Origin: Chloroflexota bacterium
Lineage (GTDB): Bacteria; Chloroflexota; Anaerolineae; DTLA01
NCBI GenBank assembly: GCA_014874485.1
Contig: JADBJK010000076.1
Coordinates: 1-58,176 of the forward strand
Direction: 5' to 3'
DNA: 58,176 nucleotides
Part shown: one piece after another, positions 32,074 to 48,678 of the stretch
Layout of the letters: each line of letters opens with the position of its first letter
Position numbering within the stretch: the stretch's first letter is position 1
Translations under genes and position numbers: made by a program
The notes under the pieces: model-generated
Database searches by the model: none
What the model was told of the DNA's origin: nothing
Seen by the model: the letters and a program-made list of their open reading frames with translations, nothing else

Positions 32074-32100
32074 GTCGCCACAACTGAATACGACTGGACG

Positions 32101-32240
32101 CTCATCCAGAGGGGTGGAGGGACCGGCCCTGTGAAACCCCGGCAACCAGAACGGCGGGTCGCGGCCCGTCGGGGGCGATGACCCCGTTCACGGTGCCAAT
32201 TCCGGCAGACCGCACCGAGCGAGTCTGAAAGATGAGAGGT
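32101..32240 (+). ncRNA. SAM-I (S-box) riboswitch upstream of metK
   Basis: The S-box consensus is present in order: CTCATCCAGAGGGGTGGAGG, GACCGGCCCTGTGAAACC, CCGGCAACC and, after the variable helices, GTGCCAATTCC, closing with GAAAGATGAGAGG. P1 forms between CTCATC (32101-32106) and GATGAG (32231-32236). GATGAGAG (32231-32238) can instead pair with CTCTCATC (32252-32259) as an antiterminator. With SAM bound, P1 is kept and the terminator at 32247 forms, switching off metK. Confidence 0.95.
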
Positions 32241-32403: not shown

Positions 32404-33615
32404 ATGAGCACCACATTCGCCACTTCGCCGAAACTGTACCTGACATCGGAATCGGTAACCGAAGGCCACCCCGATAAGGTCTGCGACCAGATTTCCGACG
32501 CCATTCTGGACGCCATCCTGGCCCAAGACCCCGACGCCCGCGTGGCGTGCGAGTGCAGCGCCACCACCGGCCTCGTCGTCATCATGGGCGAAATCACCAC
32601 GTCGGCCCGCGTGGACATGGCCGAGATCGCCCGCAACACCATCCGCGACATCGGCTACACCCGCGCCAAGTACGGGTTTGACGCCGACACCTGCGGCGTC
32701 ATCGTCTCGGTCAAGGAGCAGTCCAAGGACATCGCCCTGGGCGTGGACAAGGCGCTGGAAGCCAAGAAGGGCGAGATGACCGACGAGGAGATTGAGGCCA
32801 TCGGCGCGGGCGACCAGGGCATGATGATCGGCTTCGCCTGCGACGAGACGCCGGAGTACATGCCCCTGACCATCTCGCTGGCGCACCGCCTCTGCCGTCG
32901 CCTGGCCGAGGTTCGCAAGGCGAAAATCCTCCCCTGGCTGCGGCCCGACGGCAAGTCGCAGGTTACCGTGGAGTACGCCTACGGCAAGCCCAAGCGGGTG
33001 GACACGGTAGTGGTGTCGGCCCAGCACGATCCTTCGGTTACCCACGACGAAGTGGAAGCGGGCATCATGGAGCATGTGATCCGCGCGGTGATCCCCGCCC
33101 ACATGTTGGACAGCGGGACGAAGTACTACATCAACCCGACGGGGCGGTTCGTCATCGGCGGCCCCATGGGCGATTCGGGCCTCACGGGCCGCAAGATCAT
33201 CGTGGACACCTACGGCGGCGTGGTGCGGCACGGCGGCGGGTGCTTCTCGGGCAAGGACCCCACCAAGGTGGACCGCTCGGGAGCCTACGCGGCGCGGTAC
33301 ATCGCCAAGAACATCGTGGCGGCGGGCCTGGCCGACCGCGTGGAGATTCAGGTGTCCTACGCCATCGGCGTGGCGCGCCCCCTGTCGCTCATGGTGGAGA
33401 CCTTCGGCACGGGGCACGTGCCCGACGACAAGATCGTAGAACTGGTGAAGAAGCACTTTGACCTGCGGCCCGCGGCCATCATCCGCGACTTTGACCTGCG
33501 CCGCCCGATTTACAAGCCGACGGCGGCCTACGGGGCCTTCGGGCGCGACGACCTGGACCTCCCCTGGGAGCGCACCGACAAGGCCGAGTTGCTGCGCAAG
33601 GAGGCGGGGTTGTAG
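32404..33615 (+). CDS. metK: S-adenosylmethionine synthetase
   Basis: A 403-residue enzyme making SAM from methionine and ATP. Motifs: [20 protein letters not shown] (about 14-33), [20 protein letters not shown] (the MetK hexapeptide region) and [20 protein letters not shown] with the phosphate-binding P loop. Length is standard for bacterial MetK. ATG 32404 follows AGAAAGGAGCACAATTC. Regulated by the S-box riboswitch upstream, so expressed when SAM is low. Monocistronic. Confidence 0.98.
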
Positions 33616-39187: not shown

Positions 39188-39832
39188 CTACTTCAACTGC
39201 TTCCAGACTTCCTGCACGAACAGGGGTTCGGGGTAAGCCCCTTCCAGCGCGATGGTCTCATTGATGACCGAGCGCGGCACCCCCTGCACCTGGTACTTGA
39301 TGGCCAGGTCGGGGAACTCCATCGCCTCCACCATGTCGGCACGGACGCGGTCGCTCTCCAGCGCCATCTGGAACGCGAGCAGCACGGCTCGCGGGCAGTA
39401 GGGTCAGGTGGGGGTTACGAACACCTGGATGTGCAAATCCTGCTTCAGTTCCGCCAACGCCTTCTTCGTGGCATCCTTCAGCCCGCTCTCGCGCCGCGAC
39501 ACCATCATGATGCTCTCCACCAGCGACGAGAACTCGTACCCCGACGGGATGCCGTAAAAGCGGATGCCGTAGTCCTTCTCGCCGATAACGGCGATGGCGG
39601 GGATGCGCGCGATGTTGTACGGCGCGATCTTGTCCTTGTCGGCGACGAAGTCGTATACCTCCGCCGTGATCTTGTCCGACAGTTCGGCCAGTTCCTCCAC
39701 GATCTCGCGGGTTTCCTTGCAGAAGTCGCACTCAAAGTCCTGCGTTACCATGATCAGTTTGACCGGGTGCACCAGTTTCGCCGCGAATTCCTTCTGCAGA
39801 TACTCGCGGTCCTTGGGTTGAATCATTGGCAT
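39188..39832 (-). CDS. Probable selenocysteine-containing thioredoxin/glutaredoxin-like protein disulfide oxidoreductase (in-frame TGA at 39406-39404)
   Basis: Read through one TGA, this is a 214-residue two-domain thioredoxin-fold protein of the PDO type. Domain 1 has TQDFECDFCKETREI (intact CxxC) and ARIPAIAV with its cis-proline. Domain 2 reads QVFVTPT, TGA (codon 143), then PYCPRAVLLAFQMA, and its cis-proline loop is VQGVPRSVINE. Homologues have VTPTCPYC, so the TGA replaces exactly the first active-site cysteine, giving UxxC. A SECIS-like hairpin follows (39374-39393). Translation stopping at the TGA would leave domain 2 inactive. ATG 39832 follows GAGGAGGGTATGAC. It lies 80 bp after hsp20, suggesting protein-folding or redox stress duty. 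The alternative is a C-to-A error in a Cys codon. Confidence 0.85.
39374..39406 (-). promoter_or_regulatory. Candidate bacterial SECIS element with its UGA codon
   Basis: On the minus strand UGA (39406-39404) is followed by a 10-nt spacer and a perfect stem-loop: CGCGAGC (39393-39387), loop CGTGCT, GCTCGCG (39380-39374). The stem lies inside the coding sequence directly after the UGA and the loop has a G within its first two bases, as known bacterial SECIS elements do. This would bind SelB and direct Sec insertion. Confidence 0.75.
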
Positions 39833-39861
39833 GTCATACCCTCCTCAAGAATGTGTTGTGG

Positions 39862-39904
39862 GCGCAGAAACACGGGGACATTGGGAATCCCCGTGCTCCT
39901 GCGC
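39862..39904 (-). other. Hairpin between hsp20 and the selenoprotein gene
   Basis: CACGGGGA (39871-39878) pairs with TCCCCGTG (39888-39895); an outer GCGCAG/CTGCGC stem (39862-39867 with 39899-39904) extends it across a 3x3 internal loop. It may terminate or attenuate the hsp20 transcript; no T run is present. Confidence 0.55.
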
Positions 39905-39912
39905 GGTTTGTG

Positions 39913-40326
39913 TCATTTAGCCGCAATGCTGATCTTGCGCGGCTTGAGTTCCGGCGCCTTGGGCAGCGTGATCTTCAGGATGCCGTCCTCGTAGTGGGCC
40001 TCAATGTTCTGGGCGTCTACCTCCATCGGTATCTGGATGACGCGGCGGTAGGTGCCGCTGGTACGCTCGCAGCACAGGTAATCGGCCTCCTCGGGATACG
40101 CCTTGCGCTCGGCGCGGAGCGTGAGCGTGTCGCCCTCCAGCGTAACGTCAATGGACTCGCGATCCACGCCGGGCAGGTCTGCGTAGATGACCAAGCGGTC
40201 GCCCAGGTCAAAGATGTCCACCGGTGGCGCCCAGGTGCGCTCTTCGGGTTCGCCGCCCCAATCCTCGCCGAACTCGCCCCACGGGCCTCGTCGCGCCCAT
40301 CGCGGTCGGAAAATCGGATACCACAT
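39913..40326 (-). CDS. Small heat-shock protein (Hsp20/alpha-crystallin family)
   Basis: A 137-residue chaperone holding unfolded proteins. The alpha-crystallin domain spans about 34-137: VDIFDLGDRLVIYADLPGVD, DVTLEGDTLTLRAER, and HYEDGILKITLPKAPELKPR ending in the ISI form of the C-terminal IxI motif. A CC pair in DYLCCERTSG is unusual for this family. ATG 40326 follows ACGGGAGGTGGTTGT. No CIRCE or HrcA operator is visible upstream. It is the first gene of a probable unit with the thioredoxin-like selenoprotein. Confidence 0.92.
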   Translation of the reverse strand: MWYPIFRPRWARRGPWGEFGEDWGGEPEERTWAPPVDIFDLGDRLVIYADLPGVDRESIDVTLEGDTLTLRAERKAYPEEADYLCCERTSGTYRRVIQIPMEVDAQNIEAHYEDGILKITLPKAPELKPRKISIAAK

Positions 40327-45956: not shown

Positions 45957-46808
45957 CTACCGCGCCTTCCACGCCGCCGAGTCGGGATAGAACAGCGGCT
46001 GCCCGCCGACGGTGAATTGGAGAATCCGCTGCTGGGTCTCTACCGACGTAAGCCACTCTATGAACTTCATCGCCAGGTCATACCGCACGTTGGGGTGCTT
46101 CGCGGGGTTCACGGCCACGACGCCGTAGGGGTTGCGCAGCGCCGGGTCGGGGTTCTGGTCCAGCGTGTCGCCGCCGAGCAGAATCGCCAGGCTCAGTTTG
46201 TCGCGCATAGAGAGATACGTGCCCCGGTCGGCGAGCGTGTACGCGCCCTTCTCGCTGGCGAACAGCAGTGTGTCGCCCATCCCCTGGCCCAGCGAGAAGT
46301 ACCAGCCGCTGCGGGGATCGGGCACGATGCCCGCCGCCTGCCAGATGGCCTTCTCCTTCGTCTCCGTGCCCGAGCCGTCGCCGCGGGACGCGAAGGGGGC
46401 CTTGGCCTGGGCGATGCGGGCGAAGGCCTCGGCGGCGGTGGCGCTGCCCCTCACGCCCGCCGGGTCCGACACCGGCCCGACGAGGATGAAGTCGTTGTAC
46501 ATCACATGCTGGCGATTCACGCCGTCGCCGCTGGCCACGAACGCCGCCTCTTTGTCCGGGTCGTGGACGAGCACCACGTCGGCGTCGCCCTTTGCTCCGA
46601 TGGCCAGCGCCTGGCCCGTGCCCACGGCGATAATCTGCACATCGCAGTTGTACTTCGCCTCAAAGTCGGGCAGCAGGAAATCCAGCAGGCCCGAATCGGC
46701 GGTGCTGGTAGTGGTGGCGAGGATAAGTTTCTGCGGCGCGGAAGTCGGCGCAGCGCAACCCGCCAGCGACAGCACGACGGCGAGGACAAGCGCGAGCCTG
46801 CGGGTCAT
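45957..46808 (-). CDS. tupA: Tungstate/molybdate ABC importer, substrate-binding lipoprotein
   Basis: A 283-residue binding protein. The signal MTRRLALVLAVVLSLAGC ends in a lipobox (Cys18). LILATTTSTADSGLLDFLLP is the TupA oxyanion-binding N-terminus, GDADVVLVHDPDKEAAFVAS and ASRGDGSGTETKEKAIWQAA the other family blocks. TupA selects tungstate over molybdate. ATG 46808 is preferred because GGGGAG lies 7 bp upstream; an ATG at 46823, overlapping the ATPase stop, would add five residues. Last gene of the tupBCA operon. Confidence 0.9.
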   Translation of the reverse strand: MTRRLALVLAVVLSLAGCAAPTSAPQKLILATTTSTADSGLLDFLLPDFEAKYNCDVQIIAVGTGQALAIGAKGDADVVLVHDPDKEAAFVASGDGVNRQHVMYNDFILVGPVSDPAGVRGSATAAEAFARIAQAKAPFASRGDGSGTETKEKAIWQAAGIVPDPRSGWYFSLGQGMGDTLLFASEKGAYTLADRGTYLSMRDKLSLAILLGGDTLDQNPDPALRNPYGVVAVNPAKHPNVRYDLAMKFIEWLTSVETQQRILQFTVGGQPLFYPDSAAWKAR

Positions 46809-46822
46809 GCGGCGGCTCCCCA

Positions 46823-47554
46823 TCAGTACACCATCTCCCCACGGACGAAGGCCCGCGTGCGGGGGTCTTTGGGCGACTCAAAGAACGCCTCGGCGTCGGC
46901 GGCCTCCACGCATTCGCCGTCCAGCAGGAACATGACGCGGTCGGCCAGGCGGCGGGCCTGGAACACGTTGTGCGTAACCAGCACGATGGTGGTGTGATTG
47001 TGGTGGCGCAGACCCTTCAGGGCTTCCTCTATCACCGACACGTTGTAGGGGTCCAGGTTGGCCGTCGGCTCGTCCAGCAGGAGCACCTCGGGTTCCAGCA
47101 CCAGGGCGCGGGCCAGGGCCACGCGCTGGAGTTCGCCGCCCGACAGCGTGTGGGCCGCCGCGTGGGCCATGTGGGCCAGCCCCACCATCTCCAGCGCCTG
47201 CTCCACGCGCGGGCGCACGTTGTCGGCCCCGCGGGCGCGCAGGCCGTAGGCCACATTGCGAAACACGCTGTCGCTCAGCAAGAGCGGCCGCTGGAAGACC
47301 ATGGTAACGCGGCGGCGCACGTCCAGCGGCGGCGGCCATCGCACCGGCTCGCTGCTCCCGCCGAAGTAGAGCACGCCCTCGGTGGGCGGCTCCAGCAGGG
47401 CCAGGACGCGCAGCAGGGTGCTCTTGCCCGCGCCGCTGGGGCCGACGATGCCCAGCAGGTCGCCGGCGCGGACGGTGAGTTCGTCCACGCGGAGCACGGT
47501 GCGCCGCCCGTAGGTTACGCGCAGGTTCTCGCCCATGTACACCCAGTCGCTCAT
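46823..47554 (-). CDS. tupC: Tungstate/molybdate ABC importer ATPase
   Basis: A 243-residue ATPase with Walker A GPSGAGKST (about 38-46), Q loop in VFQRPLLLSDS, signature LSGGELQR, Walker B VLLLDEPTANLD and switch histidine LVTHNVFQARRLAD. No C-terminal TOBE or Mop domain, as usual for TupC. Overlaps the permease stop by 4 bp (ATGA), placing it second in the operon. Confidence 0.9.
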   Translation of the reverse strand: MSDWVYMGENLRVTYGRRTVLRVDELTVRAGDLLGIVGPSGAGKSTLLRVLALLEPPTEGVLYFGGSSEPVRWPPPLDVRRRVTMVFQRPLLLSDSVFRNVAYGLRARGADNVRPRVEQALEMVGLAHMAHAAAHTLSGGELQRVALARALVLEPEVLLLDEPTANLDPYNVSVIEEALKGLRHHNHTTIVLVTHNVFQARRLADRVMFLLDGECVEAADAEAFFESPKDPRTRAFVRGEMVY

Positions 47555-48258
47555 GCCGTCTTCCCCTGCAGTCGGAGCATCAGGATGTTGCTGAGGAACG
47601 ACAGCAAGAGCAGGATGAGCGCCAGCGCGATGGCAAGGCTGAAGTTGCCGCGGCGGGTTTCCAGCACGATGGCGGTGGTGAGGACGCGCGTGGAGCCCTC
47701 AATGTTGCCGCCCACGAGCATGACCGCGCCGACCTCGGAGATGATGCTCCCGAATCCGGCGATGACCGAGACGATGACGCCGAAGCGGGCCTCGCGCAGG
47801 ACCGCCAGGGTCGCCTGCCACTCCGTCGCGCCCAGCGAGATCAACTGCTGGCGCAGGCTGGGGTCCACGCCCTTGACCGCCGCCATGGTGAACCCTGCCA
47901 CCAGCGGGAACGAGATGATGACCTGCGCCACCACCATCGCGCCAACGGTGAACAGGCGCGGAACCCAGGCTACGTTCAGGCTCCCCAGCGGGCCACTCTG
48001 GGACAGCAGGAGGTACACGAACAGACCCACGACGACGGGCGGGAACCCCATGCCGGTGTACAGCAGGGCGACCACAAGCCTGCGGCCCACGAAGCGCGAG
48101 AACCCCAGCCACGCACCCAGCGGGATGCCGATGGCGGCGCTGAACAGGAGGGCCGTCCCGGAGACCCGCAGCGACACGCCTACGATGTGCATCACCTCGG
48201 GGTCCAGGTGCCACAGAAGCAGCGCGGCTTGTTTGAGTCCCTCCCAAATCTCGTTGAT
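47551..48258 (-). CDS. tupB: Tungstate/molybdate ABC importer permease, apparent AUC start codon
   Basis: A 235-residue membrane protein with five to six helices; the EAA-type loop is SLGATEWQATLAVLREARFG. Reading from INEIWEGLKQAALLLW matches the usual TupB N-terminus. There is no ATG, GTG or TTG there: an ideal AGGAGG (48270-48265) is followed after 6 nt by ATC (48258-48256). Initiation at AUC, rare but known, is the simplest reading; otherwise a G-to-C change destroyed an ATG. A longer upstream frame would run through the riboswitch terminator and is rejected. The first gene under the Moco-type riboswitch. Confidence 0.82.
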   Translation of the reverse strand: MNEIWEGLKQAALLLWHLDPEVMHIVGVSLRVSGTALLFSAAIGIPLGAWLGFSRFVGRRLVVALLYTGMGFPPVVVGLFVYLLLSQSGPLGSLNVAWVPRLFTVGAMVVAQVIISFPLVAGFTMAAVKGVDPSLRQQLISLGATEWQATLAVLREARFGVIVSVIAGFGSIISEVGAVMLVGGNIEGSTRVLTTAIVLETRRGNFSLAIALALILLLLSFLSNILMLRLQGKTA

Positions 48259-48282
48259 GGCGCACCTCCTGCGCTTGGATTC

Positions 48283-48340
48283 GCCGCAGAGCACACGCAG
48301 GGCTTCTATCCGTTTGGTCTCTCCTCCGTGCCTCTGCGGC
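48283..48340. repeat. CCGCAGAG inverted-repeat element in the tup leader
   Basis: Bounded by perfect 9-bp inverted repeats GCCGCAGAG (48283-48291) and CTCTGCGGC (48332-48340). It sits between the riboswitch terminator and the tupB ribosome binding site, exactly as the related element does in the metK leader. Confidence 0.65.
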
Positions 48341-48351
48341 AAACCCCCAAG

Positions 48352-48386
48352 CAAAACGAATCGGCTGCCCGGAAGGGAGCAGCCGA
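48352..48386 (-). terminator. Intrinsic terminator of the Moco-type riboswitch
   Basis: On the minus strand TCGGCTGC (48386-48379) and GCAGCCGA (48368-48361) form a perfect 8-bp stem with a 10-base loop, followed by TTCGTTTT. It explains how the riboswitch would control tupBCA. Confidence 0.8.
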
Positions 48387-48403
48387 CATACGCACTGTGC
48401 TGC

Positions 48404-48529
48404 GGTTCTCCTTTCCGAGCACGGGGGGCGCGGGCGTTTCCACCCGCACCGTTGGCCCGGGAACATGCCCCGGGCGCTGCGGCTGCGCGCCATAGGCCGG
48501 TGCCCGTAGGCGGCGCAGCTCGGAGAGCC
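48404..48529 (-). ncRNA. Moco/Tuco-type riboswitch upstream of the tup operon
   Basis: A compact structured leader about 16 nt after the promoter. P1 forms between GGCTCTCCGAGC (48529-48518) and GCTCGGAAAGGAGAACC (48420-48404) with an AAA bulge. Inside are a GAAA tetraloop hairpin GGGTGGAAACGCCC (48445-48432) and receptor-like CCTACGG (48510-48504) and CCTATGG (48496-48490). This layout, and a Mo/W transporter downstream, fit the Moco RNA motif that senses molybdenum or tungsten cofactor. The motif match is from memory; a covariance search would decide. Confidence 0.75.
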
Positions 48530-48551
48530 TGCCGATATTCGGTTCGCACCC

Positions 48552-48580
48552 AGTATATGCAGGGGCGGGGCATTTGGCAA
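48552..48580 (-). promoter_or_regulatory. Promoter of the tupBCA operon
   Basis: On the minus strand TTGCCA (48580-48575), a 17-bp spacer and TATACT (48557-48552). Transcription should begin near 48545. Confidence 0.8.
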
Positions 48581-48678
48581 GTTCGCGTTTTCACGGATTG
48601 CATCTCAATCCTGCGGCGAGAATGCCCGGACATCGTTGGGTTGCCGAGCGGAATTCACCTCACCAAACCCCTCCCACA

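Follow-up and report, generated by a model that had tools for sequence, protein, structure and literature searches.

The stretch of DNA analysed here (the window; 58,176 nucleotides of contig JADBJK010000076.1 from a Chloroflexota bacterium) carries on its reverse strand a protein disulfide oxidoreductase (PDO) gene whose open reading frame contains a single internal stop, a TGA at codon 143 in the context VTPT-TGA-PYCPRAV (Table 1). An earlier note, made from the sequence alone, had placed this TGA at the first cysteine of the second CxxC, with the frame open for 71 further codons including GVPRSVIN, CDFC retained in domain 1 and a perfect 7-bp stem-loop beginning 10 nt past the TGA, and each of these observations was confirmed. 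The 71 sense codons end in TAG (39190–39188), and GVPRSVIN, assigned from family knowledge, is presumably the cis-proline loop. PDOs have one CxxC in each fold; with the TGA read as selenocysteine (Sec), residues 143–146 become UPYC and there is one CxxC-type motif per thioredoxin fold. Between the PDO gene and the Hsp20-type gene upstream lies a very strong inverted repeat (39860–39905, reverse strand), which is possibly a terminator or leader structure; the region spanning it (39833–39915) folds with −38.6 kcal/mol (z −5.5). Elsewhere in the window, a SAM riboswitch (Rfam; 32099–32238, forward strand) closely precedes a methionine adenosyltransferase-like gene (32404–33615), which is an ordinary arrangement.

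Table 1. Features of the PDO gene and its in-frame TGA, in window coordinates.
Feature	Position	Strand	Description	Evidence
PDO gene (TIGR02187), predicted to contain Sec	39188..39832	−	214 aa with Sec143, TAG stop	TIGR02187 profile and phmmer to 1a8l
TGA codon 143, putative Sec	39404..39406	−	First position of domain-2 UPYC motif	TGA in 23 other genomes, TGC/TGT in the rest
CDFC active site of domain 1	39719..39730	−	Residues 35–38	
GVPRSVIN of domain 2	39260..39283	−	Residues 184–191	
SECIS-like hairpin	39374..39393	−	7-bp stem, 39393–39387 with 39380–39374; loop CGUGCU, 39386–39381	

Translated with Cys in place of the TGA, the protein scores 281.4 bits against the NCBIfam model TIGR02187 ('PDO_seleno_TRX, protein disulfide oxidoreductase'), whose curated cut-off is 185 bits; the match covers residues 6–211 of 214 and profile positions 2–208 of 209. 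Its top Pfam match is Thioredoxin_3, and the nearest solved structure is the Pyrococcus furiosus PDO (1a8l; phmmer E 1.2e-53, residues 2–210), followed by 1j08, 2ywm, 2ayt and 2hls. The AhpF model TIGR03140 matches only in its N-terminal domain region (E 2.8e-21, 75.6 bits). An assignment to AhpF itself was rejected, with this score set against an AhpF cut-off of 502.9 bits and the flavoprotein (FAD/NADH) part absent.

The host genome is a draft metagenome assembly of 3.74 Mb (95.7% complete, 3.0% contamination) whose relatives by sequence are Anaerolineae bins. The earlier note had named selA, selB, selD and a tRNA-Sec (UCA) as the genes to look for in the rest of the genome, and all are present: SelB scores 349 bits, SelA 592 bits and SelD 372 bits, and the tRNA-Sec scores 67.9 bits by model, with the anticodon TCA given by ARAGORN. 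In this metagenome-assembled draft the PDO gene is on contig 98, which is the window, and the sel genes lie on other contigs; SelA, SelB and tRNA-Sec were also found in both same-genus genomes searched. SelD (contig 120) has an in-frame TGA of its own, in ASCAG-TGA-AGKMGPEA, which we take to be the usual Sec site of SelD, and a formate dehydrogenase alpha gene on contig 56 (883 bits) contains one TGA. Within the window, a Moco (molybdenum/tungsten) riboswitch (Rfam; 48392–48537, reverse strand) lies upstream of genes that probably encode a tungstate/molybdate ABC transporter (45957–48633), an arrangement consistent with a molybdenum- or tungsten- and selenium-dependent formate dehydrogenase in the genome.

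A bacterial SECIS is expected as a hairpin directly 3′ of the UGA whose apical loop is small and includes a G (PMC1088965). The hairpin of the PDO gene (CGCGAGC-CGTGCT-GCTCGCG) has this form, with its 7-bp stem starting 10 nt and its 6-nt loop 18 nt past the UGA, and with G at the second base of the loop. Its stem reaches −11.5 kcal/mol, compared with a mean of −3.4 kcal/mol in synonymous-codon shuffles, and none of 300 shuffles was as good; dinucleotide shuffling of a 45-nt stretch gave a weaker signal (z −1.8, 11 of 200). A wider comparison took 24 UGA and 45 Cys genes and, in each, set the strongest perfect hairpin close to the codon against 300 shuffles of synonymous codons. The UGA genes had a mean of −8.9 kcal/mol and a mean z of −1.7, with half at p ≤0.05, whereas the Cys genes had −5.7 kcal/mol and z −0.4, with 4% at p ≤0.05 (Mann–Whitney on z-scores, p ∼5e-6, an optimistic value because related sequences were counted singly). 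The loop starts 18–23 nt past the UGA in 22 of the 24 UGA genes, and all 24 have G as the first or second base of the loop. Three UGA members (L052, L056 and L068) have no strong hairpin at the expected place when the search strictly requires a perfect stem. Counting the seven stem pairs in a fixed register over the family gave no separation (mean 4.0 for UGA, 3.6 for Cys), because stem length and loop size vary between lineages. The Rfam model SECIS_1 (RF00031) had zero matches in the host genome and in control genomes alike; this is presumably a eukaryotic-type model whose silence says nothing here.

The TGA is conserved well beyond this genome. Among 396 Anaerolineae genomes surveyed, 206 encode a protein that scores above the TIGR02187 cut-off; among the matches listed, those from 23 other genomes contain exactly one stop, always TGA and always at the equivalent of codon 143, and in 23 of 23 one-TGA matches fetched it opens the domain-2 motif. 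A chance TGA is excluded because TGA alone occurs, at the same codon, in these 23 other genomes. Across 141 sequences, a count that includes a few duplicates, the codon is TGA in 27, TGC in 71 and TGT in 43, so that the Cys/Sec exchange among homologues that the earlier note had proposed to look for was found, with no other residue at this position. SelA is over the cut-off in 23 of the 24 UGA genomes, the exception being only 67% complete; its presence does not discriminate between UGA and Cys genomes, most Cys genomes of the class being SelA-positive as well. Over the 67 codons past the UGA, pN/pS is 0.03–0.09 in four of five close UGA–UGA gene pairs (the fifth has just four differences), and translation therefore continues past the TGA. 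A protein tree built without the Sec column requires at least 12 Sec/Cys changes, and well-supported branches force six of these. One metagenome-assembled genome labelled Candidatus Puniceispirillum encodes a more distant PDO (L153) whose equivalent of codon 143 is likewise TGA; if that bin is right, the Sec form extends to a genome whose label lies outside Anaerolineae.

The closest relative of the PDO gene is locus L082 (genome G001). Its sequence corresponds to public contig JARYMK010000176.1 (Anaerolineae isolate A05DMB-I-30), and the two loci are syntenic, sharing the Hsp20-type gene upstream. The two genes differ at 24 of 645 nucleotides and their proteins at 5 of 214 residues, including residue 143, which in L082 is Cys (TGC) in a genome that also has the Sec machinery. 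A synonymous difference at codon 148 (CGA here, CGC in L082; stem position 39389) breaks an A–U stem pair in L082, leaving it with a best perfect hairpin of −1.9 kcal/mol, against −11.5 kcal/mol here; in this pair of genes, the two A/C differences at codons 143 and 148 go together. A second set, whose members all belong to another single genus, shows the same pattern, with −10.1 and −7.4 kcal/mol for two UGA genes (L058 and L060) and −3.2 kcal/mol for a Cys gene (L087). In such near-identical Sec/Cys pairs, loss or gain of the UGA accompanies loss or gain of SECIS base pairs. It is probable that the PDO gene and L082 reflect a recent Sec/Cys exchange between two congeneric species, each of which has retained the Sec machinery. 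If so, the two genes would be a near-minimal natural pair for Sec versus Cys in a PDO and for SECIS decay. As to the direction of the change, the tree puts a Cys gene (L081) next outside the pair, with weak support. L082 keeps the codon CTC at Leu152, a codon that contributes to pairing in the Sec hairpin and occurs in 6 of 114 Cys members; retention of a codon so rare elsewhere is a hint that Sec may have been lost in the L082 lineage.

Under translation table 11 the TGA would be a true stop, leaving a one-domain thioredoxin-fold protein of 142 residues and a dead remnant, and a mechanical list of open reading frames does yield a 142-residue frame ending there. This is very unlikely, given the intact downstream frame under purifying selection in UGA–UGA pairs, a stop identical in identity and position in 24 genomes, and the full sel machinery of the host. 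Because the same-genus homologue L082 has TGC at codon 143, an error of sequencing or assembly, or a TGC-to-TGA mutation private to this genome, might also be considered, but 23 other genomes share the same TGA, and the codon-148 difference that completes the hairpin would not accompany an error; we give this explanation similarly little weight.

Genome-wide reassignment of TGA to Trp or Gly would account for the in-frame TGA codons in selD and formate dehydrogenase alpha as well. However, these are families long known for Sec use, Anaerolineae use table 11, and SelA, SelB and EF-Tu-like frames were found without an internal TGA, making reassignment extremely improbable. The gene, its codon, the hairpin, the Sec machinery and the conservation are directly seen, and from them we infer Sec insertion itself: on the sequence evidence, UGA-143 almost certainly encodes Sec, which makes the product a PDO-type selenoprotein whose domain 2 carries UxxC and whose domain 1 carries CxxC. 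This was the central proposal of the earlier note, now supported by the TIGR02187 match, Sec machinery, hairpin and conservation. Two findings that the note had said would count against it, a genome lacking sel genes and homologues with a residue other than Cys at this codon, did not occur.

The product is predicted to be a cytosolic PDO with two thioredoxin folds, also described as a glutaredoxin-like protein or homologue of the AhpF N-terminal domain. SelB and tRNA-Sec would decode UGA-143 at the adjacent hairpin, giving UPYC in the C-terminal fold beside CDFC in the N-terminal fold. Mutagenesis of the Sulfolobus solfataricus PDO showed that thiol transfer depends fundamentally on the C-terminal site and that isomerase activity requires both sites (PMC7465337); PDO electrons come from NADPH thioredoxin reductase and pass on to peroxiredoxins and other targets (PMC7278568). 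We infer the chemistry, substrates and electron donor as follows. Sec143, at the exposed, attacking position of the C-terminal site, most likely performs the attack in the main thiol-transferase site and would reduce protein disulfides, and the resulting Sec143–Cys146 selenenylsulfide would then be re-reduced by a flavoprotein of the thioredoxin reductase type. Since Sec143 would occupy this attacking position, the protein is likely, from family knowledge, to serve as a faster disulfide reductase of the cytosol.

The PDO gene adds one more member to an established selenoprotein family; the find is genuine and essentially ordinary. For annotation of the genome the reading is important, as standard annotation truncates the protein at residue 142 and loses its main active site, and about two dozen Anaerolineae members are added to a known but little-studied family. 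Homology to the N-terminal domain of AhpF is detectable (TIGR03140). Cys-type PDOs, including those of P. furiosus (1a8l) and Aquifex (2ayt) and, from the literature, Sulfolobus SsPDO, likewise consist of two tandem thioredoxin folds over their full length but have Cys where the gene here has Sec, their C-terminal CPYC presumably corresponding to UPYC. The earlier note knew of no described selenoprotein of this exact architecture; this part of it did not stand, the architecture having been in the literature since 2006, when the family 'Homolog of AhpF, amino-terminal domain' was listed with two selenoproteins, from Carboxydothermus hydrogenoformans and Symbiobacterium thermophilum (PMC1794560). 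Reviews of 2022 and 2026 equate this AhpF-homologue family with TIGR02187 and give the motif UxxC and the example ABB15282.1 (PMC9312934, PMC13188914), four Asgard sequences of the selenoprotein family have been described (PMC11227280), and the NCBI model name of TIGR02187 already contains 'seleno'. With the published members, for which ABB15282.1 serves as example, the PDO gene shares a family match over the cut-off and UxxC. By the published entry for ABB15282.1 it agrees in every checkable respect (family and motif), and only the host, an Anaerolineae draft genome, differs.
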